From assembly GCA_018824145.1 (NCBI GenBank), contig JAHJHC010000085.1:1-35675 (forward strand): a stretch of DNA of 35,675 nucleotides, written 5' to 3'. Every line of letters starts with the position of its first letter. Positions within the stretch are counted from its first letter, which is position 1. Below the pieces are notes generated by a model. That model did no database searches and was not told the origin of the DNA. It worked only from the letters and a program-made list of their open reading frames with translations. A program made the translations under genes and the position numbers. The DNA comes from Candidatus Omnitrophota bacterium. Lineage in GTDB: Bacteria; Omnitrophota; Gorgyraeia; Gorgyraeales; Gorgyraeaceae. Below, in pieces: positions 1 through 35,578 of this stretch.

Positions 1-810
1 AGTTATGCCTAAAACGCTAAAGAACATCCGTACCATTGCATATACGCCGAGGGATTTTATAAGAACGCCTGATAACATTGCAGAAATCGGTGCCGGCGCA
101 GACGGATGGGCATCCGGCAGCCATGCATGAAATGGGACAAGTGCTGACTTTAACCCGAAACCCATAAGAAAAAATACACTGACCAGTAAAACTATTGGGG
201 AAGGACCACTTTTAGCCAACTCCATTGACATATCAGCCATATTCAGAGTGGATGAGATACTATACAAAAACGCAATGCCTAATAATATAAAAGATGATGC
301 CACAGCCCCCATTACTGCATACTTAAAAGATGCCTCAAGTTCTTCATGTTCTGTGCCAAAGGCAACCAATGCATAACTAGCAACAGCTGCGATCTCAAGG
401 AATACGTATAGATTAAACACATCTCCGCTTATTATTACGCCATTCATCCCTGCCACCATCAAAAGAAAGAGGCAGTAAAAAATCCATTTCTCAGTGTACT
501 TCTTCATATAATCTATTGAATAGATACTAATGAGAAATGCCACTACATTCACTGTGACCAGCATGAAAGAAGTGAGCCCGTCTAGAACCATGGAGATGCC
601 TATAGGCGGAACCCAACCACCTACCTTATAAACAAGCACCCCACTATGCTTAAGCAGAAATATAGAATAAATGGATAAATATGCCAGACAAAATGTAGCA
701 ACAGCAGACAAAAGGTCTGATAAAAATTTTACCTTTTTACCGATAAGGGAGTTTAAAAATGTGGCTGCTAATGGTATAGCAATGAATAATGGCAATATGT
801 TATTCGTCAT
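1..810 (-). CDS. Mrp/Mnh antiporter subunit D-like (NuoN/MrpD family) proton-conducting membrane protein, truncated by the left window edge
   Basis: Not in the ORF track. Minus-strand reading from ATG at 810 gives MTNNILPLFIAIPLAATFLNSLIGKK..., and further on ...FFLMGFGLKSALVPFHAWLPDAHPSAPAPISAMLSGVLIKSLGVYAMVRMFF..., the typical NuoN/MrpD core with the Lys/His proton-channel region. Confidence 0.88.
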   Translation of the reverse strand, partial: MTNNILPLFIAIPLAATFLNSLIGKKVKFLSDLLSAVATFCLAYLSIYSIFLLKHSGVLVYKVGGWVPPIGISMVLDGLTSFMLVTVNVVAFLISIYSIDYMKKYTEKWIFYCLFLLMVAGMNGVIISGDVFNLYVFLEIAAVASYALVAFGTEHEELEASFKYAVMGAVASSFILLGIAFLYSISSTLNMADMSMELAKSGPSPIVLLVSVFFLMGFGLKSALVPFHAWLPDAHPSAPAPISAMLSGVLIKSLGVYAMVRMFFSVLGIT

Positions 811-814
811 AAGA

Positions 815-1153
815 TCAACCCTTCAACTTACGTATCTTCGTGATATCAAATGTGCCGTATTTTTCATACACCCTCATGGCAATCGCGGCTATCATAGCAG
901 TAACTGCAAGACCGATAACTATGGCAGTTAAAACAAGCGCCTGCGGTAAAGGGTCGACCATATCCAAGACCGTTTGATCTGGAGAGTGTATGGGCACACG
1001 GCCGTTCATCCTGTATCCGACCAAAATAAAAAATAGATGCACTGCGTATTCCATTATTACTATGCCTATAATTATCTTTATGAGATTCCTTTTTCTAAGG
1101 ATACAGTACAACCCTACAGAAAAAAGTACAAGACACAAAAAATATACGCTCAT
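815..1153 (-). CDS. Mrp/Mnh antiporter subunit C-like (NuoK family)
   Basis: 112 aa, three hydrophobic segments, NuoK/MrpC-like; located between MrpB-like and MrpD-like genes. Confidence 0.85.
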   Translation of the reverse strand: MSVYFLCLVLFSVGLYCILRKRNLIKIIIGIVIMEYAVHLFFILVGYRMNGRVPIHSPDQTVLDMVDPLPQALVLTAIVIGLAVTAMIAAIAMRVYEKYGTFDITKIRKLKG

Positions 1154-1602
1154 TTTTCTCCACCCTTTTTAGGTATCTTCAAAAGGACCAAGATGACAAA
1201 AATAATAAAAAGCCCCGCGCCTACTTTTAGACATATGGCTAAATTGTATAAAGGGATAAGGCCGGAACTAAAAAGTTTAAAAGGTTTTCCCTTTAGCATA
1301 AAATTAAGAAAGAAGTATCCGCTGCCTATACCCAATATTGCAAACGTTATAAACATTATTGCACCCACACTCTCAAAGAAAGACATCACACTCTGATTCA
1401 TTTTCTTAAAGGTCACTTCTTTCCCAAACGCCAGCATAATATGTATAAAAGAAAGTGCGATAATTGCCCCGCCTGCAAATCCGCCGCCAGGACTTATATG
1501 TCCATGCGTAACGATATATATACCAAATAGCAATATTAACCCTACTGTTAATCGTGTGATTGTCTTGACTATTAAAGTCATGCCTTCCTGATTCTTGGCC
1601 AT
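1150..1602 (-). CDS. Mrp/Mnh antiporter subunit B-like
   Basis: 150 aa with the characteristic HGHISPGGGFAGGAI motif; overlaps the next gene by 4 bp. Confidence 0.88.
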   Translation of the reverse strand: MAKNQEGMTLIVKTITRLTVGLILLFGIYIVTHGHISPGGGFAGGAIIALSFIHIMLAFGKEVTFKKMNQSVMSFFESVGAIMFITFAILGIGSGYFFLNFMLKGKPFKLFSSGLIPLYNLAICLKVGAGLFIIFVILVLLKIPKKGGEK

Positions 1603-1603
1603 A

Positions 1604-2122
1604 TTACTTTTTCCTTCCGACCTTTCTCATAACTGCCAATACCCCCATAACTGCTGTAAAGAGTATAGTCGCCTCTCCTAAAGTATCATATGCCCTATAA
1701 TCCAAGATAACCGAAGATACCAGATTAGTCGCACCTGTCTCTCTTAAACCCTCAGCGATAAATCTCTGAGCAATTTTCATAATAGGTTGTCCAAATTGCG
1801 GCAAGTCTTTTATGTATAGATAAATAAAAACCAAAAACACGCCAATAAATACAAATGTCACAAGTGTATTGAAAAACCAGCGGCCACTTGTAGAAAAAGG
1901 CAGATCTCTCCTAATAGTAGCCCTTATTAATATTATTATGACCAATATCTCAACTACCAGCTGAACAATCGCTAGATCCGGCGCCTTAAGTATCAGAAAC
2001 ACCAGAGACAGGCCGAGGCCTACTGTGCCTACTGCAATAACCGAAGACAATAGATCCTTCTCTTTAACTGCTATAATCGCACCTATAATCATAAATATTA
2101 GAAGGAGTTGCAATTCAAGCAT
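1604..2122 (-). CDS. MbhD/MbhE-like fusion (MrpA C-terminal-like domains)
   Basis: 172 aa. The N-terminal half resembles DUF4040/MbhD (KAPDLAIVQLVVEIL); the C-terminal half resembles MbhE (ILDYRAYDTLGEATILFTAVMGVLAVMR). Confidence 0.75.
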   Translation of the reverse strand: MLELQLLLIFMIIGAIIAVKEKDLLSSVIAVGTVGLGLSLVFLILKAPDLAIVQLVVEILVIIILIRATIRRDLPFSTSGRWFFNTLVTFVFIGVFLVFIYLYIKDLPQFGQPIMKIAQRFIAEGLRETGATNLVSSVILDYRAYDTLGEATILFTAVMGVLAVMRKVGRKK

Positions 2123-2129
2123 CTAAATA

Positions 2130-3926
2130 TTACCTCACTATGGCAAATAAAAATACTATCATCCCCAAGAGACACCATACAAGATATGTGGGTAAAACTC
2201 CGTTATGTAAATATTGAAATATCCTTATAAAGAAAAATACTAATCTCTTACCCTGATCATAGATATCAAAAACCTTTCTCTCTGCCTTGGCATAAATGGA
2301 TTTCAGTATAGATATGTTTTTTATCGTGTCATAAAATTCTGTACCGGAGAGCCTCATGTCTCCCTCGATCTCTTCCCCTCCTATATAAGGAGAAGTCTCT
2401 CTTATACCTCTAATATTACCCGCAACATAAATTAAAAGCCCGACACCCAATCCTATAATCAGGAACAATGTCGCCTTTAAAGACGGCCATGTACCAATAA
2501 ATGTCAGGCCTTCGGGTAAAGCCGGTACTATAAAATATTTTAAAGGTATTATATAGGCAAATACTCCGAATATAATGCATAGAGTTGCAAGGATCAAAGC
2601 CGGCAGCCACATAGACCAGGAAACTTCGTTCCGGGTTGCGGGTGTTGGGCGCGTTTCGTCTTTTGCCTTACCTAGGAACATTGCATGGATTAATTTTATA
2701 AATGAGGCGAGAGTCAGACCGCTTCCAAACATAGCTGCAATTATACAAAATACCCACAATGTCCCTCCTGAACGGCCTCTTTCTACCAAACCCTGATAGA
2801 CCATCCATTTTGAGAAAAAGCCATTAAAAGGCGGGACACCTGATATTGCAAAAGAGGCGATTAAAGTTGTAAAGAAAGTCATTGGCATTGTCTTAGCAAG
2901 GCCACCCAAAGAATCCAGATCCGATGTTTTCGTCTTATATTCCACACTTCCTCCTGAAAGGAATAAACAACACTTATATATAGCATGATTGATCATATGA
3001 AAAAGCCCGCCTGCAATACCTATAATATTACCTGTGCCCAGACCAAGTACCATATAACCAACCTGACTCACTGCATGATAGCCCAGGAGTCTTTTAAAGT
3101 CATGTTGTATAAGTGCCATCATTACTGCTGCTACTATAGTGACTGCGCCTACTACCATCAAAAGGGCATATGTAAAACTATCCAATATAAACACATTTAA
3201 TACCAATCTTGCCAGTAAATAAATCCCTAAAAGTTTATCAAGGCTGGCCGGTAAAAAGGCAGTTACAGTTATCGGCGCATCCTCTGCTGTATCAGGAATC
3301 CAGGTGTGAAAAGGCATTGCACCTGCCTTTGCAAATGCCCCTATAGCTATCAATAGAAATGCCCAAAAGGAAAGTGAATTATCTATGGCTATCTTTATAT
3401 CACTTAAATTTAAACTTCCTGCTATAAGCCATACAATACCAAATCCCATAATCATCAGGGCATCAGAACCGCCTATTATAATAAAAGTCTTCTTACTGGT
3501 ACCCGCGGACCTTGGACCGGCAATGTTAATCAATAAATAAAGCGTAAGTCCTAAAAATCCCCAGCCTGCTAAAAACACGACTATATTATTCGAGACCGCA
3601 GTAAGTATGGATCCGCCTATGGTCCAGATTATATATGAATAATATGAACGGTATTCTTTATATGAAGCCATGAATCTCACTGAGTATAAAGTTACCAAGC
3701 ACCCAAAAAAACCTATCCCTAACACAATAAATCTGGAAAGATTGTCTACGTATAAAAACTTTTCATTAATCGGAGACTGGGCAAATATCTTTATAGAGGC
3801 TACGAATAAATATAGGGCCACAAGCAAACTAAAAGTCTCTATTATCCTTCTGAATCTCTTCGGGATAAGAAAGATAAAAGAACCTGCAAGTGCTGAAATC
3901 AATATTGGCTGTAATAATGTCTGCAT
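2130..3926 (-). CDS. NuoL/MrpA/HyfB-like proton- or Na+-translocating antiporter subunit
   Basis: 598 aa polytopic protein with GWGFLGLTLYLLI, GAMPFHTWIPDTAEDAPITVTAFLPASLDKLLGIYLL and HDFKRLLGYHAVSQVGYMVLG motifs. Confidence 0.9.
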   Translation of the reverse strand: MQTLLQPILISALAGSFIFLIPKRFRRIIETFSLLVALYLFVASIKIFAQSPINEKFLYVDNLSRFIVLGIGFFGCLVTLYSVRFMASYKEYRSYYSYIIWTIGGSILTAVSNNIVVFLAGWGFLGLTLYLLINIAGPRSAGTSKKTFIIIGGSDALMIMGFGIVWLIAGSLNLSDIKIAIDNSLSFWAFLLIAIGAFAKAGAMPFHTWIPDTAEDAPITVTAFLPASLDKLLGIYLLARLVLNVFILDSFTYALLMVVGAVTIVAAVMMALIQHDFKRLLGYHAVSQVGYMVLGLGTGNIIGIAGGLFHMINHAIYKCCLFLSGGSVEYKTKTSDLDSLGGLAKTMPMTFFTTLIASFAISGVPPFNGFFSKWMVYQGLVERGRSGGTLWVFCIIAAMFGSGLTLASFIKLIHAMFLGKAKDETRPTPATRNEVSWSMWLPALILATLCIIFGVFAYIIPLKYFIVPALPEGLTFIGTWPSLKATLFLIIGLGVGLLIYVAGNIRGIRETSPYIGGEEIEGDMRLSGTEFYDTIKNISILKSIYAKAERKVFDIYDQGKRLVFFFIRIFQYLHNGVLPTYLVWCLLGMIVFLFAIVR

Positions 3927-3927
3927 G

Positions 3928-5106
3928 TTATCGACCCCGCCTCATTTTTTCTGTCTTCTCCTGTGAAAGGCGAACCAAATCCTGGCCGTCCATTATTTTC
4001 TTACCTGTCTTATAATCCACAACTGCTGTCCGCTCTGTACAGCAGTAACACGGGTCTACAGCAGCAAGTATTATTGTGGCGTCTGAAATAGTATGGCCTA
4101 TCACTGCCTTTTTATTAGAAGCTATATTCATGAAACTCGGGGCCCTTACTTTATGACGCGCAGGAGAATTGCCGCCGTCAGACATGATATAATGAAATAC
4201 CTCACCTCGAGGTGCTTCATGTCTACCTATTCCTTCACCTATAGGCATATCCTTTATATTTAAATCGATCTCTCCTTTAGGCATTTTATCAAGACATTGT
4301 AATATTATATTAGTAGATTCATAAAGCTCCAGGATCCTAACAACAGCTTTTGCAAAGACCCCTCCCCCATTATGAGTTATGACCTTCCACTCCACTCTAT
4401 CATATGCACCATACGGATCATCCTTCCTTACATCAATGTCCACACCCGAGGCCCTTGCTGTCGGCCCAACAACAGAATAATCATGTACATCCTGTTTCGT
4501 CAATACACCGATTCCCTTTGTCCTTGCATGTATAACAGGATCATCCATTACTGCGCCCTTAAACATGTCAAATTTCGGGATTAAATCTTTCAAGGTCTTT
4601 TTTATCCATGGGAAATCTTCTTCATGCATATCCCTTCTTACGCCACCTGGCTTAAACATAGCATAATGGTTTCTATTCCCGGTAATCCTTTCGCAAATAT
4701 CCAAAACCGGCTCTCTATACCTCCATGCCCACATCCAGACAGTATTATATCCTAAAAAGTGGCCTGCCAGGCCTAACCATAAGAGATGGCTGTGTATCCT
4801 CTCAAGCTCCCCTATTATTGTGCGAATATAAAGAGCCCTTTCAGGTACTGTAACACCTAACAAATCATCAATCGCATTCGTATATGCAAAGGGATGCGAG
4901 GTCGAACAAATACCACAAATACGCTCAATCAGAAATGTCACCTGATCATAACTCTTGGATTCAGCTATCTTCTCGATCAGGCGAAGGTTATAGCCGATTT
5001 CAATATCTATATCCACTACGGTTTCGCCATCTACATGTAACCTAAAAAACTCCGGCTCTTCCTGTAATGGATGATATGGGCCTATGGGAATGATTTTATG
5101 TGCCAT
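3928..5106 (-). CDS. Group 4 membrane-bound [NiFe]-hydrogenase large subunit (EchE/MbhL/NuoD-like)
   Basis: 392 aa. N-terminal ERICGICSTSH and C-terminal DPCYCCTER (DPCxxCxxR) retain all four Ni-ligand cysteines, unlike NuoD. Confidence 0.92.
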   Translation of the reverse strand: MAHKIIPIGPYHPLQEEPEFFRLHVDGETVVDIDIEIGYNLRLIEKIAESKSYDQVTFLIERICGICSTSHPFAYTNAIDDLLGVTVPERALYIRTIIGELERIHSHLLWLGLAGHFLGYNTVWMWAWRYREPVLDICERITGNRNHYAMFKPGGVRRDMHEEDFPWIKKTLKDLIPKFDMFKGAVMDDPVIHARTKGIGVLTKQDVHDYSVVGPTARASGVDIDVRKDDPYGAYDRVEWKVITHNGGGVFAKAVVRILELYESTNIILQCLDKMPKGEIDLNIKDMPIGEGIGRHEAPRGEVFHYIMSDGGNSPARHKVRAPSFMNIASNKKAVIGHTISDATIILAAVDPCYCCTERTAVVDYKTGKKIMDGQDLVRLSQEKTEKMRRGR

Positions 5107-5113
5107 GATATCA

Positions 5114-5201
5114 TTTTGTCACACTGAAGTGTGACCTACAAAGTTGTCGCAAAGGCCTCCATAAACAGGCAGGTTGAAACCTGCCTATTCTCGGCTTTTG
5201 C
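5114..5201. repeat. 88-bp nested-hairpin element, copy 1
   Basis: TTTTGTCACACTGAAGTGTGACCTACA...GCAAAGGCC...AGGCAGGTTGAAACCTGCCT...GGCTTTTGC. 84/88 identical to 5645-5732 by direct comparison. Contains GTCACACT/AGTGTGAC, AGGCAGGTT/AACCTGCCT and outer GCAAAGGCC/GGCTTTTGC stems. Confidence 0.95.
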
Positions 5202-5203
5202 AT

Positions 5204-5638
5204 TTATTTATCTCTCCTCAATGGATAATTGCCTTTAGGCCAGTCGTCCTTTAAAAGTAAATGCTTCATGTTCGGATGGCCTTTAAAATTTACACCCAGT
5301 AGCTCGTGAATCTCTCTTTCTATCCACTCTGCGCATTTCATTATAGCTGTCAAGCTGTCTATCTCAAGATTCGGTTTCTCCAATACCACTCTTAAAGAAA
5401 CTATAAGCCCTATTTCATCAACTGAAAAATGATACAATATCTCGACTCCGGATCTTGTATCAACTCCTGTTGCTATTGAAAACCTTGCTTTAACATCATT
5501 AAAAAGATATCTTACTATCTTCGGCAATATTTCTTTATTAATGGTAACGTACACGCGTCTTACAGACTTGTCTTTAAGTTCTATCAAGTCTTTTCCTGAA
5601 CGCACTTTTATATTTTCGATGATCTCGGTTCTTTTCAT
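5204..5638 (-). CDS. NuoC-like hydrogenase/complex I 30-kDa-like subunit
   Basis: ESGxxY-like region at WIEREIHELLGVNFKGHPNMKHLLLKDDWPKGNYPLRRDK. The ORF track starts at 5653, but MKRTEII at 5638 is an alternative because the region upstream is repeat element copy 2. Confidence 0.85.
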   Translation of the reverse strand: MKRTEIIENIKVRSGKDLIELKDKSVRRVYVTINKEILPKIVRYLFNDVKARFSIATGVDTRSGVEILYHFSVDEIGLIVSLRVVLEKPNLEIDSLTAIMKCAEWIEREIHELLGVNFKGHPNMKHLLLKDDWPKGNYPLRRDK

Positions 5639-5644
5639 TTTTTC

Positions 5645-5732
5645 TTTTGTCACACTGAAGTGTGACCTACATTATTGTCGCAAAGGCCTCCATAAACAGG
5701 CAGGTTGAAACCTGCCTATTCTCGGCCTTTGC
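5645..5732. repeat. 88-bp nested-hairpin element, copy 2
   Basis: Same element as 5114-5201. Here the outer stem GCAAAGGCC/GGCCTTTGC is perfect. It overlaps the 3' end of the small-subunit gene. Confidence 0.95.
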
Positions 5733-6150
5733 CTTTTAATTTTGCAATCAATTTCACGATGCCTAATATCATTGCCTCTGGTTTCGGCGGACATCCCGGT
5801 ATATAAAGATCCACAGGGAGAAGTGAGTCTACAGGATTTGGTGTATACGGGCCATTTGCAAAAATACCCTGGCCACAGGCACATGCACCTACTGCTATTA
5901 CTACGCAAGGTTTTGGTGCCTGTTCATAAACCCTTTTTACACGCTCCACTGCCTTTAAGTTTAAAGAACCAGTAACTAAAATAGCATCTGCATGCCTTAT
6001 GCTGCCTACCAAAACTATGCCAAATCTTTCTACGTCAAATCTAGGCGTCAGTAAATCCAGGATCTCAATATCGCAATTATTACAACTGCCACCTGTACAA
6101 AGGTGATAAACCCAGATAGATTTTGTCAAAGCCCCTAATTTTAAGCTCAT
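5716..6150 (-). CDS. Group 4 [NiFe]-hydrogenase small subunit (NuoB/EchC/MbhJ-like)
   Basis: CTGGSCNNCDIEIL, GACACGQGIF and IPGCPPKPEAM, the proximal 4Fe-4S ligand pattern. Confidence 0.92.
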   Translation of the reverse strand: MSLKLGALTKSIWVYHLCTGGSCNNCDIEILDLLTPRFDVERFGIVLVGSIRHADAILVTGSLNLKAVERVKRVYEQAPKPCVVIAVGACACGQGIFANGPYTPNPVDSLLPVDLYIPGCPPKPEAMILGIVKLIAKLKGKGRE

Positions 6151-6155
6151 ATTTT

Positions 6156-7061
6156 TTATTTACCTAAAATTGCCAGGAAGACTGCGATTAATGCCAAAGC
6201 TGTCATCTTTCCCCAGAAAAACCTCACAGCCTGGTCTATCCTGACTCTAGGGTTTGTATTCCTAATCAAAACTATTATAACCAGTAAAACTACGTATTTC
6301 CATATACTAAAACCTGCCCAGAATACTGTAATAAGAAATAAAGGGAGGGCAACCATCATCATAAACTTTGTAAGCTTCAGGATGGCCAATAAAATCCCGG
6401 AGTACTCGATATATGTCCCTGCCATTATCTCTGTCTCTGCCTCACCAGCATCAAACGGTACCAACCCAAGTTTTGCCTGCATACAAAATATTGCGACTAA
6501 AAATGCGAGGAGCCCTGATAGATTTGATAAAATAGCTCCATTTACTGTCTGGTACTGTATCAAATCCTGTAATCTTAAAAGTCCGCTGCTTTTAATAATA
6601 GGCACGCAAAGGATAATTATAAAAGGTAATTCATAAGCCAGAATCAACTTTATTTCTCTCGATACTCCAACGGAAGCCAGTGGATTCCCGGTTGAAGATG
6701 CACCTAATATAAGGGCAATAGCCGGCAATGTCAATAAATATAAGACAACTATAATATCGCCTGTAAAACCAGTAGCACCCAGCTCTATATTAGCCAACCA
6801 GATAAAAGTAGATGCCAATATTACAGCACTCAGGCCTAAGAGCGGGGAGATCAAAAACATTATTTTCGAAGAATTCTTCGGGATAGTTATCTCTTTTATA
6901 CTCAACTTTACCATATCTATAAATGGCTGATACCAAGGAGGCCCCACTCTCCATTGCACACGAGCGGTTACTTTACGATCTATCCAGCTAGCCACTAAGC
7001 CCAGAGTAGCCGTAAAGAGGAAACCAGGGAATACTAGGAAATTAAATAAATTTTTCAGCAT
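6156..7061 (-). CDS. NuoH/EchB/MbhM-like membrane anchor subunit
   Basis: RKVTARVQWRVGPPWYQPFIDMVKL, VPFDAGEAETEIMAGTYIEYSG and NTNPRVRIDQAVRFFWGKM. Confidence 0.92.
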   Translation of the reverse strand: MLKNLFNFLVFPGFLFTATLGLVASWIDRKVTARVQWRVGPPWYQPFIDMVKLSIKEITIPKNSSKIMFLISPLLGLSAVILASTFIWLANIELGATGFTGDIIVVLYLLTLPAIALILGASSTGNPLASVGVSREIKLILAYELPFIIILCVPIIKSSGLLRLQDLIQYQTVNGAILSNLSGLLAFLVAIFCMQAKLGLVPFDAGEAETEIMAGTYIEYSGILLAILKLTKFMMMVALPLFLITVFWAGFSIWKYVVLLVIIVLIRNTNPRVRIDQAVRFFWGKMTALALIAVFLAILGK

Positions 7062-7066
7062 AACGT

Positions 7067-7555
7067 CTATGGATGATACTTCTTCCAGGGTTTTGCATAC
7101 ACTGCTATATTTTTACCTATCAGATATATATCATCTTTCTCCGAAGGTTCTATATCTATAAACTTTACTGCCCCTTCAATAGAACAGGTCTTTACACAAA
7201 CCGGCACTTCCTTATCACATCTATCTATACATACATCACATTCCGATATAATATAAGGTATTGTACTAGAAGGAATAATCCCAAATGGACAAGCCAAGCT
7301 GCATGACTTGCATGATATACACCGCATACTATAGCGCTTTATTACGCCATCAGGTTGTTTTTCCAATGCATCTTTCGGGCAACTCGTCACACACGGCGCA
7401 TACTCACATCTTCTACATGTATGTTGAAATTGGGCTATCTCCCTTAAGCGGGTTATACCAGAATTATTGGGATGATAATAATAGCTGCATTCACAGGTAC
7501 AAGCCGTGTCTTCACAACTATATAATTTTTCAAGGTCTATGAATAAGCGTTTCAT
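7067..7555 (-). CDS. 4Fe-4S polyferredoxin-type electron transfer protein (HycB-like)
   Basis: Cys clusters CRRCEYAPCVTSCPKDAL, CISCKSCSLACPFGI, CDVCIDRCDKEVPVCVKTC. Start MKRLFIDLEKL at 7555 preferred over the upstream 7573 codon because it sits just after the upstream gene's stop. Confidence 0.87.
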   Translation of the reverse strand: MKRLFIDLEKLYSCEDTACTCECSYYYHPNNSGITRLREIAQFQHTCRRCEYAPCVTSCPKDALEKQPDGVIKRYSMRCISCKSCSLACPFGIIPSSTIPYIISECDVCIDRCDKEVPVCVKTCSIEGAVKFIDIEPSEKDDIYLIGKNIAVYAKPWKKYHP

Positions 7556-7556
7556 A

Positions 7557-8381
7557 TTAATCCCAAATCTCATGTATGTGGCTTATCTTATCATATCTGA
7601 ATACGGGACCGTCTTTACATACGTAAAAATCCCCGAGCCTGCAGTGGCCGCATTTCCCTATGCCACAACTCATGTTTTTTTCCATTGATAAATAAATCTG
7701 TTCTTCTTTATATCCAATATCAATAAGTTTAAATGCCGTAAATTTCATCATAATGGGAGGGCCACATATGACTGCTATGCTATTCTTTAAATTTATTTTC
7801 AGATTATCCAAAGTAGTTGTTACCAGCCCCACTTTCCCTTTCCAATTATCATCACCCTTATCTACCGTAACCCTAAAATTGACCCTTTTATCTATCTTCT
7901 GCCATTTATCCAAGACACAATCTTTAAAAATAATATCTTTAGGAGTCCTTGAACCGCAACAAAACAGTATTTCTTTAAACTTATCTATATCGTGCACTAA
8001 TGCGAGAAACAATGCCCTTAACGGTGCAAGACCCACTCCTCCTCCGACCAGCAGGATCTCTTTCCCTTCGAATTCATTAAGGGGATATTCATTCCCGTAA
8101 GGCCCCCTCAATCCGACTATCTCTCCCTTTTTTAAATCATGTATTCTTTCTGTAACCCTACCTGCCTTCATAATACTAATATCTAACTTGCTATTTTCAT
8201 ATGGGGAAGAAGAAGGAGTAAAAGGTGCCTCTCCTATGCCAGGAATAGTCATTTCTATAAACTGACCTGCTTTAAAATGCAAGGGCTTCTCAGGCTTAAG
8301 CGCAAAGGTCTTTATAGTAGGGCTCTCTTGATAAACATTTAATACTTCAGTTTTTATCGGTATATAAGGACTTTCTATCAT
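7557..8381 (-). CDS. FAD/NAD(P)-binding oxidoreductase with 2Fe-2S cluster, sulfhydrogenase gamma / HydG / AsrB-like
   Basis: FNR-like fold (GQFIEMTIPG, GGGVGLAPLRALFLAL, CGPPIMMKF) and C-terminal CGIGKCGHCRLGDFYVCKDGPVF. Confidence 0.88.
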   Translation of the reverse strand: MIESPYIPIKTEVLNVYQESPTIKTFALKPEKPLHFKAGQFIEMTIPGIGEAPFTPSSSPYENSKLDISIMKAGRVTERIHDLKKGEIVGLRGPYGNEYPLNEFEGKEILLVGGGVGLAPLRALFLALVHDIDKFKEILFCCGSRTPKDIIFKDCVLDKWQKIDKRVNFRVTVDKGDDNWKGKVGLVTTTLDNLKINLKNSIAVICGPPIMMKFTAFKLIDIGYKEEQIYLSMEKNMSCGIGKCGHCRLGDFYVCKDGPVFRYDKISHIHEIWD

Positions 8382-9397
8382 AGCTTGCTAAGGACCTCGT
8401 GTATATATATCTTCCCAGCACAGGCCTGGCTACATCTTCCACAACCAGTACATCCGAATCTCCCGATCATATCCGGAAAAAAATTAAATTTCTTATCAAA
8501 ACGATTTCTTAGGCGTTGGGCCAGGAGTTTCCTCGGATTCGCGCCCCCTGCGACTCTGGCAAAAGACAATAAAAGGCATGAATCCCATAATCTTAATCTC
8601 TCAAAATTACCTTCGACATTCTGGTCCTTTAACGTAAAACAGTGACACGCAGGACATATCACACTGCACGCCCCGCACTCAACACAGGTCTTCGCGATCT
8701 CTTCCCATAGCGGGGAATCAAATTTTTTCTTTAAGAGTGACTGTATTGAATCCTTATTTGGGATTTTTTTGTGTTTTACATGCTCGGATAGAGACCCTTT
8801 TAATGATTTCCTGTTTTCTTCCTTTTTTTCCGTATAATGTTCGGCATTCTGGAATAACTTAAAATAATCTTTTACTACCTTTTCACCTTTTCCTGAACCC
8901 ACTTCTGCCACATATCCGCTTTCTATCTCGGAAAGATTTATATCAAAGTCTTCTGTCGGATACGGCATTATCCCCAATCCAATACAAAAACAACTTTCCC
9001 CATAACATGTACAATCGCTTGATATAATAAGGCCCTCTTCCCTCTGAGAAATATAAAACGGGTCATTAAAAGGTTCCTGCTCGAATACATAGTCCATTAT
9101 TTTCAATGAAGCCAGATCACATGACTTTACCCCTACTATTGCTATGGGCCTGGGTTTTCTCTCAGAAATATCCTGCGAGAAGTAATCAGCTACTTTTATG
9201 CGGGCGGGAAAATAAAAACTCTTGATAGTCTGGACCGCTCTAATCTCACCAAGGACAGCATCTCTCAGTCCTTCGTCTCCGATCTTTTTATAGTACCTAT
9301 TGTCGTCTGATTTTACAGGCGCATAGACATTATATGTTTTAGCAAGAGATCTAACAAGCCTGTCGAGGTTGGGTCTATTGATAAAATAATTGTCCAT
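8378..9397 (-). CDS. 4Fe-4S dicluster protein, sulfhydrogenase beta / HydB / AsrA-like
   Basis: CVECGACSVICPACHCF and CTGCGRCSQAC; GVKSCDLASLKIMD; 4-bp overlap with the HydG-like gene. Confidence 0.87.
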   Translation of the reverse strand: MDNYFINRPNLDRLVRSLAKTYNVYAPVKSDDNRYYKKIGDEGLRDAVLGEIRAVQTIKSFYFPARIKVADYFSQDISERKPRPIAIVGVKSCDLASLKIMDYVFEQEPFNDPFYISQREEGLIISSDCTCYGESCFCIGLGIMPYPTEDFDINLSEIESGYVAEVGSGKGEKVVKDYFKLFQNAEHYTEKKEENRKSLKGSLSEHVKHKKIPNKDSIQSLLKKKFDSPLWEEIAKTCVECGACSVICPACHCFTLKDQNVEGNFERLRLWDSCLLLSFARVAGGANPRKLLAQRLRNRFDKKFNFFPDMIGRFGCTGCGRCSQACAGKIYIHEVLSKL

Positions 9398-9427: not shown

Positions 9428-9447
9428 TTTGTGAAAATTATCACAAA
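9428..9447. promoter_or_regulatory. Palindromic operator, Rex-like or CRP/FNR-family-like (TTTGTGA-AAATTA-TCACAAA)
   Basis: Perfect 7-bp inverted repeat with 6-bp spacer, 31 bp upstream of the ATG of the first hydrogenase-operon gene. Core TTGTGAAAATTATCACAA matches the published Rex consensus TTGTGA-N6-TCACAA and also the CRP TGTGA-N6-TCACA pattern. Confidence 0.6.
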
Positions 9448-9481: not shown

Positions 9482-9507
9482 AAATATAATACAAACCCTC
9501 TCTTATG

Positions 9508-9909
9508 TCAAGAAAAATCTACTTTTTTAATATTTCTTCTCTCCAACACTTCCAGTATCTTGGCCTTTAAGTTAATAGCGTCTATAGGCTTTGTAATATA
9601 CAAATCATCATATAATCCCGCAGCCTTAAGTTTAGTCTCCTCATCTTTTAAGGCACTAAGTATAACCACAGGGATCTCTATAGTATCGAGATTCTTCTTA
9701 AGTTTTTCCAACACTTCAAAACCATCCATGCCTGGCATGTGTATATCTAAAAGAATCAAATCTGGTTTCAGTTTTTTAGCTAACTCCAATCCTTTTTTAC
9801 CATTTGTAGCTACACTCAATTCAAAATCACCTGTATTCTCCAAATTCATCTTAACAATTGAACAAAAATCTTTTTCGTCATCTATAATCAATATCCTCTT
9901 TTTACCCAT
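9508..9909 (-). CDS. Stand-alone response regulator receiver (REC) domain protein
   Basis: MGKKRILIIDDEKDF, LILLDIHMPGMDGFEVL, VVILSA, ITKPI. The ORF track start is GTG at 9918; ATG at 9909 is better spaced from a GGGAGGGG Shine-Dalgarno. Confidence 0.9.
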   Translation of the reverse strand: MGKKRILIIDDEKDFCSIVKMNLENTGDFELSVATNGKKGLELAKKLKPDLILLDIHMPGMDGFEVLEKLKKNLDTIEIPVVILSALKDEETKLKAAGLYDDLYITKPIDAINLKAKILEVLERRNIKKVDFS

Positions 9910-35170: not shown

Positions 35171-35578
35171 TTAAAAATGTAACTCCATTGCGCGCGGCGG
35201 GCAGGCCTTTATGCATAGCTCGCAGGCAATACATTTATTATCATAAAAATCAACTTTGCGAGTCTCTGGGTCTATAACCAATGCCCCGCTTGGGCAGATC
35301 GGGACACATGCGCCGCAATGAGTACACTTTCCCTCATTCCTTTTAATATCCTTAGATAAGGGTTGTGCGGTTACACCAAGTGATTTTACAAAATCCAAGG
35401 CCTTTTCAAAATTTTTATCCGAACCTCTAAGTTCAAGGACAAGGAGCCCCTCTTCTCTCGGTGTAACGTATGCCTTCAGTATATTAAACTCCAGATCAAA
35501 ATCCTTTACCATCTTGCAAACTATAGGCTGCTCTACAAGTCTGTGAGGAAATTTTAAGACAATGCGTTTAGAAACCAT
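35171..35578 (-). CDS. NIL-domain protein with two 4Fe-4S clusters
   Basis: N-terminal NIL-like region, then CTHCGACVPICPSGAL and CIACELCIKACPPRAM; Shine-Dalgarno GGAGG upstream. Confidence 0.9.
   Translation of the reverse strand: MVSKRIVLKFPHRLVEQPIVCKMVKDFDLEFNILKAYVTPREEGLLVLELRGSDKNFEKALDFVKSLGVTAQPLSKDIKRNEGKCTHCGACVPICPSGALVIDPETRKVDFYDNKCIACELCIKACPPRAMELHF

Follow-up and report, generated by a model that had tools for sequence, protein, structure and literature searches.

From which donor does a membrane-bound [NiFe]-hydrogenase draw its electrons when its genes follow those of a putative NAD(P)H-oxidizing module? This question is raised by an operon at one end of a 35,675-nucleotide stretch (contig JAHJHC010000085.1, here referred to in its whole length as the window) from the Candidatus Omnitrophota bacterium assembly GCA_018824145.1, in which the genes for an Mrp-linked group 4 hydrogenase are headed by hydB and hydG, homologues of sulfhydrogenase genes. 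Complex I has its closest relatives among the group 4 hydrogenases, whose characterized Mrp-linked forms use, to our knowledge, ferredoxin, formate, or CO. The hydrogenase described here appears to be wired to the NADH pool instead of to ferredoxin alone. We consider it moderately probable that the operon encodes an NAD(P)H:H+ oxidoreductase complex, probably H2 evolving and coupled to ion flow, which would serve as a Rex-switched outlet for NADH.

The operon consists of 12 co-directional, intact genes on the minus strand between positions 9397 and 1, with MrpD alone being truncated, by the window edge. In transcription order, they encode HydB, HydG, a CooF-like protein, NuoH, NuoB, NuoC, NuoD, NuoL, MbhDE, MrpB, MrpC, and MrpD. 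The same list and order had been given in a first-pass annotation of this DNA, and every gene on it was recovered intact and on a single strand.

A HydB-HydG-CooF module is the fixed partner of the hydrogenase

The first gene, hydB (positions 8378 to 9397), encodes a 339-amino-acid Fe-S subunit of the sulfhydrogenase beta or AsrA type (NCBIfam ShyB/HydB/AsrA), whose best match of solved structure is the beta subunit of Pyrococcus furiosus sulfhydrogenase 1 (PDB 9nez_B; E=1.6e-41). It overlaps by 4 bases hydG (7557 to 8381), which encodes a 274-amino-acid subunit of the gamma or AsrB type, predicted to bind FAD, NAD(P)H, and an Fe-S cluster (Pfam FAD_binding_6, NAD_binding_1, and DHODB_Fe-S_bind) and closest to the gamma subunit of the same enzyme (PDB 9nez_C; E=3.5e-60). 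The two proteins also match the AsrA and AsrB models. Of the 16 HydB cysteines, 15 are invariant among 81 relatives; in HydG, the GGGVGLAP and CGPP motifs and four cysteines are conserved. The third gene (7067 to 7555; the start is likely the ATG at 7555, the open frame beginning at 7573) encodes a CooF/HycB-like polyferredoxin with a Fer4_11 domain and at least 13 invariant cysteines, which matches HycB, HydN, and an AOR Fe-S subunit and is the proposed adapter to the hydrogenase.

In a search of the phylum covering 285 genomes, the large subunit was found in 132 at E<=1e-60, the top set comprising about 77 places with 63 to 100% identity over most of the length. A scan of genome contigs confirmed 563 candidates; the best 80 were kept, none of them with the title of a cultured strain. 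HydB-HydG-CooF lies directly upstream of nuoHBCD in all 52 of these named loci that have more than 5.2 kb of DNA upstream of nuoD. The same holds for the Omnitrophota loci found in the phylum search wherever the upstream sequence can be read (23 of 23), the two sets sharing some genomes. At least six phylum labels are represented among the 52 loci (Omnitrophota, Elusimicrobiota/Endomicrobia, Bacteroidales, Planctomycetota/Brocadiia, Auribacterota, Hydrogenedentes, Chitinispirillaceae, and others), these being depositor labels of metagenome bins that may be wrong. Chance adjacency is ruled out by this conserved synteny: HydBG-CooF is a fixed partner of the hydrogenase, as the first-pass annotation had considered possible in describing a modular hybrid and pointing to a survey of gene neighborhoods.

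The ion-translocating part of the operon is somewhat less constant. Among the 60 loci whose downstream DNA extends to 7 kb or more, 53 encode Mrp subunits, and HydBG is kept at six of the seven others. One of these six, L137, is without NuoL as well and is possibly broken; the seventh locus, L106, is cut upstream. Since HydBG is kept where Mrp is missing, it is the steadier partner of the two. A reduced variant may be represented by L057/L131, L127, L130, L135, and L136, where the HydBG-type operons have few or no Mrp genes but include NuoL, an MbhN-like ferredoxin, or both. Long reading frames at L154, L062, and L150, considered as natural fusions of HydB, HydG, or CooF to the core, were due to overlapping-frame read-through.

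The large subunit is very likely a catalytic [NiFe]-hydrogenase

The NuoD/MbhL-type large subunit (positions 3928 to 5106; PF00346 and PF00374; aligned with Mbh and HycE) contains ERICGIC at residues 61 to 67 and DPCYCCTER at residues 351 to 359. All four Ni-Fe cysteines are kept, and together with the neighboring residues they are invariant among the aligned relatives. The second motif is followed by a 33-residue C-terminal tail like that of HycE, and a HycI-family protease is encoded at the 3' end of the operon. Among solved structures, P. furiosus Mbh (E=1.4e-87) and E. coli HycE (E=1.1e-80) match best, with complex I ranking lower. Given the intact RICGIC and DPCYCCTER motifs, the tail, and the protease, the protein is very likely a true, catalytic group 4 [NiFe]-hydrogenase, in agreement with the first-pass annotation, which had described an Mrp-linked group 4 enzyme with intact Ni-Fe ligands. 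A hydrogenase-related complex of the Ehr, Mbx, or Mbs type lacking Ni-Fe is ruled out by the four ligand cysteines; in contrast, the complex I-like proteins of L080 and L081 are cysteine poor.

At L080 (G102:C11, 2972 to 16782), a HydB-HydG pair is found close to an operon of the complex I type in which NuoD has lost the Ni-Fe cysteines; this may be the same input arm serving a non-hydrogenase complex. A joined NuoD-NuoL frame is present in L020, and the in-frame stops of certain distant paralogues, which come after the last motif, had the appearance of natural ends.

A Rex-type operator precedes hydB

The palindrome TTGTGA-N6-TCACAA (positions 9429 to 9446; TTGTGATAATTTTCACAA) ends 31 bp before the hydB start and is the sole exact copy in the 1.73-Mb genome. 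It is directly preceded by a sigma-70-like promoter (9483 to 9511, minus strand; TTGACA, a 17-nt spacer, and TATATT, 11 of 12 positions), identified by a consensus scan whose matches are no more numerous than in shuffles. The site has one mismatch to the full Rex consensus published previously, TTGTGAANNNNTTCACAA (PMC6391272, PMC2883068), and none to TTGTGA-N6-TCACAA. Rex senses NADH/NAD+, and the Staphylococcus aureus protein is released from DNA by NADH and not by NADPH (PMC6391272, PMC2883068). A 207-amino-acid Rex is encoded in the same genome (contig C38), and the operator in the window is predicted to belong to its regulon.

Within 350 bp upstream of hydB, the operator was found in exact form at 21 of 75 loci and with at most one mismatch at 27 of 75, compared with 0.03% and about 0.1% in shuffles; L065, whose upstream DNA is masked, was left out. 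Neither the operator nor rex was found at any of the 10 paralogue loci without HydBG that were searched. A first scan with TTGTTAANNNNTTAACAA had given no overall enrichment (mean p of 0.49), and the TTGTGA form, which is that of the published consensus, was taken up after it had been sighted at several loci, with genome-wide uniqueness, shuffles, and the paralogue loci serving as checks. Furthermore, rex is the upstream gene at several distant loci, and a Rex homologue is encoded within 2.5 kb of hydB at 20 of 70. A hand count gave 39 of the 75 loci with either an operator at or near the exact form or rex as a neighboring gene. In the Bacteroidales loci L144, L145, and L161, a ATGTGAAACAA(A/T)TCACAA site lies between hydB and a divergent rex-like gene, consistent with an operator shared by the two.

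The Rex-type operator and the adjacent rex genes provide independent evidence for a link to NADH. One loop position of HydG is R or K, and a preference for NADH or NADPH is not readable from the HydG sequence; NADH is favored as the donor because of Rex only.

The HydBG-linked hydrogenases form a distinct clade

When 39 representatives were analyzed with IQ-TREE, the large subunits linked to HydBG came together in one group (99/99 support; stem of 0.70). Outside it stood P. furiosus Mbh, the single 4d reference, together with HycE of E. coli (4a), an Ech-like enzyme from Butyrivibrio, and the Omnitrophota paralogue. A FastTree analysis of 126 rows recovered a clade of 107 without intruders (support of 0.77); groups 4b and 4g were not represented among the references. 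FastTree placed an Azospirillum enzyme as the sister, with which IQ-TREE disagreed, and no sister group is claimed. The large subunit stands outside the characterized references that were compared, and synteny is conserved. The first-pass annotation is therefore not refuted by the outcomes it had itself named, namely placement in a well-characterized subgroup that includes hydBG or a lack of conserved synteny and of a predicted interface. A placement in 4d/4e is not supported; the clade is apart from Mbh, and the membrane-bound hydrogenases of Omnitrophota have been assigned to HydDB group 4g in two studies (PMC8542988, PMC10066038). Group 4g has been described as loosely clustered, of undetermined role, and putatively ferredoxin coupled (PMC5037454).

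HydG and HydB of these operons are also separated in trees, with modest support (0.60 and 0.88), from the group 3b-like copies that were compared. Their distance matrices correlate with that of NuoD (r=0.79 for HydG and r=0.72 for HydB), as joint inheritance predicts, with shared organismal ancestry contributing. At L104, in a metagenome-assembled genome (MAG) labelled Planctomycetales, the HydBG-group 4 operon is immediately preceded by a group 3b-like sulfhydrogenase operon (410 to 4955), whose HydB and HydG copies branch outside the HydBG-group 4 set. A second group 4 paralogue of Omnitrophota (L068-L077; 43 to 49% identical) keeps the Ni-Fe cysteines and has its own antiporter subunits but no HydBG.

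Proposed function

We infer the assembly of the complex, NAD(P)H as its donor, the direction and stoichiometry of the reaction, and ion coupling from the sequence. The gene products would form a trimodular membrane complex in which a HydG-HydB-CooF input arm is joined to an Mbh-like [NiFe] core and an Mrp-type ion arm. Hydride from NAD(P)H would be transferred to the FAD of HydG, and the electrons would then pass through the HydG Fe-S cluster to the Fe-S clusters of HydB. From there, in an order modelled on homologous complexes, they would run via the CooF-like adapter, the MbhN/HycF-like subunit encoded at the end of the operon, and NuoB to the Ni-Fe site, where H+ would be reduced to H2. The first-pass annotation had raised the possibility of electron bifurcation, for which gene content gives no support, as there is one flavin subunit of the NfnA/PyrK type and no bifurcating partner.

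The main role of the complex would probably be the disposal of NADH electrons as H2, with Rex switching the operon on as NADH rises; Rex control favors the H2-evolving direction. Because the reduction of H+ by NADH lies near or above equilibrium unless H2 is low, the ion arm would operate close to balance during H2 formation or be powered by the ion gradient, and at high H2 levels the complex could reverse, oxidizing H2, exporting ions, and charging the membrane. No other PF00374 protein, and hence no second [NiFe] large subunit, was found in the genome, nor was an [FeFe]-hydrogenase. As it stands, no H2 outlet other than this complex is known for the cell, the absences being provisional.

Several considerations weigh against this proposal. 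By the established redox potentials, the transfer of electrons from NADH to H2 is uphill under standard conditions and comes close to balance around 10 Pa H2; NADH by itself therefore cannot drive a net export of ions during H2 formation. Around half of the loci have neither the operator nor rex nearby, and the TGTGA-N6-TCACA core would fit CRP-type regulators as well. In Caldicellulosiruptor bescii, an Ech hydrogenase that depends on ferredoxin is likewise under Rex control (PMC6391272), and Rex hence indicates redox-balance control and not the substrate. The MAG is 91% complete, and the support comes from sequence analysis.

Extended to the whole set of loci, it is conceivable, though we offer this tentatively, that these enzymes are phylum-spanning ion-coupled NADH:H+ oxidoreductases in which the ion gradient pushes glycolytic NADH to H2, replacing confurcating [FeFe]-hydrogenases where these are lacking. 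Much of what is labelled ferredoxin-coupled 4g would then be NADH coupled. The conserved NAD(P)H arm and the apparent control by an NADH sensor give a concrete prediction of the electron donor for a widespread uncultured group. If this is correct, the complex would be a hydrogenase-side analogue of the NADH arm of complex I, with an unrelated flavoprotein module as its building block. It would also explain how NADH could be disposed of as H2 by fermenters that lack confurcating hydrogenases.

Alternative explanations

One alternative is a two-donor complex in which ferredoxin enters at the CooF-like or the MbhN/HycF-like subunit and NADH at HydG, with confurcation or pooling of the electrons and net ion export. 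The two polyferredoxin-type subunits would suit such a scheme, as would the two POR-type genes of the genome, a source of ferredoxin, and the lack of a confurcating [FeFe]-hydrogenase. However, HydG is related to single-FAD reductases of the PyrK/NfnA type and HydB to a non-flavin Fe-S protein; NfnB, NuoF, and a second flavin subunit are all absent from the operon, and the single Complex1_51K protein detected in the genome is RnfC. We regard this alternative as unlikely.

Rather less likely still is an essentially Mbh-type enzyme that takes electrons from ferredoxin and in which HydBG also reduces NAD(P)+, that is, a membrane-bound ferredoxin:NAD(P)+ oxidoreductase with H2 as a side branch. 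Of the solved structures, that of Mbh is closest to the large subunit, and annotation habit places such enzymes in the putatively ferredoxin-coupled group 4g (PMC5037454). Yet the Ni-Fe ligands and the protease have been retained, the genome already encodes Rnf for electron transfer from ferredoxin to NAD+, and HydBG is more constant than Mrp.

It is very unlikely that the complex is a membrane-bound sulfhydrogenase, with HydBG as an AsrAB-like arm linking H2 to sulfite or polysulfide. The matches to the AsrA and AsrB models would agree with this idea. The sulfhydrogenases of P. furiosus are also known to reduce sulfur, as noted in PMC8542988. However, AsrA and AsrB require the siroheme subunit AsrC for sulfite reduction, and no asrC gene is present in the operon (the rest of the genome was not searched for it); Rex control also fits NADH better. 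That HydBG-CooF serves another partner and merely shares the operon is scarcely credible: a molybdopterin oxidoreductase is encoded near the related locus of Saganbacteria RX5A (PMC6349859), but here gene order is fixed across phylum labels, no PF00384 match and thus no molybdopterin oxidoreductase or formate dehydrogenase partner was detected in the genome, and without a second [NiFe] large subunit there is no other hydrogenase for HydBG to serve.

Relation to known systems

The HydBG-group 4-Mrp arrangement already has a precedent. Matheus Carnevali et al. described in 2019 a group 4 locus of Saganbacteria RX5A with Mrp, cooF, asrA, and asrB genes, which they called enigmatic (PMC6349859), bearing out the caution of the first-pass annotation that related arrangements might be known. 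Those authors proposed an Mbh-like function and named no role for NADH; the nearest relatives were enzymes of Zixibacteria and Omnitrophica (PMC6349859). As judged from the published description, the two loci have in common Mrp, the group 4 core, cooF, asrA (HydB-like), and asrB (HydG-like), whereas RX5A also carries an unclassified molybdopterin oxidoreductase gene, none being found in the window or its genome. What appears to be new here, as far as the open-access literature goes, in which earlier reports may have been missed, is the near-universal linkage across phyla, the distinct clade, and the connection to Rex.

P. furiosus Mbh (group 4d; PDB 6cfw) shares the Mrp-type subunits, the NuoH/B/C/D-like core, and an MbhN-like ferredoxin, and its large subunit is 43% identical; in contrast, it is ferredoxin driven, lacks HydBG and CooF, and lies outside the HydBG-linked clade. 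The Mrp-Mbh-Codh complex of Thermococcus onnurineus (HydDB 4b; PMC4731540) and its formate-respiring relatives follow a common logic of input enzyme, CooF, hydrogenase, and Mrp. A 13-kb Mrp-Mbh-Codh cluster has already been transferred into P. furiosus COM1 (PMC4731540). The input enzyme of these complexes is a carbon monoxide dehydrogenase (CODH) or a formate dehydrogenase, whereas here it would be HydBG; neither type of input gene occurs in the operon, and CODH was not searched for genome-wide. P. furiosus sulfhydrogenase 1 (group 3b; PDB 9nez) has the homologous HydB-HydG NAD(P)H module but is soluble and combines it with a group 3 HydA and HydD, in place of the NuoD- and NuoB-type catalytic subunits found here.

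Remainder of the operon and neighboring genes

Between the input module and the large subunit gene lie the genes for the membrane subunit NuoH/MbhM (positions 6156 to 7061; PF00146, E=2.5e-58), the small subunit NuoB/MbhJ (5716 to 6150; PF01058, E=4.3e-29), and NuoC/MbhK (5204 to 5638; PF00329, E=3.2e-25). The last probably starts at the ATG at 5638 and not at the GTG at 5653, which is inside a dispersed repeat; its relatives are 142 to 145 amino acids long. The large subunit gene is followed by those for a NuoL/MrpA-N-like antiporter subunit (2130 to 3926; PF00361, E=1.6e-56), a fusion of MbhD and MbhE corresponding to the C-terminal part of MrpA (1604 to 2122; PF13244 and PF20501), MrpB (1150 to 1602; PF04039), MrpC (815 to 1153; NCBIfam MnhC family, PF00420), and the first 270 amino acids of MrpD (1 to 810). 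Median gene gaps in relatives are -4, 6, -4, 4, 1, and -0.5 bp, and such overlapping or nearly abutting junctions indicate a single operon.

The operon continues on contig C104 (L006) of the same genome, which starts with the reverse complement of window positions 1 to 141 at 100% identity, so that the join is an assembly overlap. C104 completes MrpD (499 amino acids in total) and then encodes MrpE, MrpF, and MrpG, all three of which the first-pass annotation had proposed to look for past position 1, followed by the MbhN/HycF-like ferredoxin and the HycI-family maturation protease. The ferredoxin is a two-cluster protein closest to formate hydrogenlyase and NuoI-type subunits. The same uninterrupted gene order is found on single contigs at L042, L044, and L082. 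Perfect inverted repeats of 31 and 34 nt lie past the protease gene (C104, 3132 to 3454).

Both gaps flanking nuoC are occupied by a 92-bp hairpin-rich dispersed repeat (5114 to 5205 and 5645 to 5736; the copies are 95% identical), of which further copies occur on contigs C70, C49, C122 (two), and C100. They look like recent insertions, because the genes of the closest relatives abut at these points. On the other side of the operon, a gene for a NIL-domain ferredoxin (35171 to 35578), which in the relatives L042 and L044 is found 0.1 to 2.2 kb from hydB, is set apart from it here by the gene of a response regulator and an extended cluster of the exopolysaccharide type (9508 to 34813).

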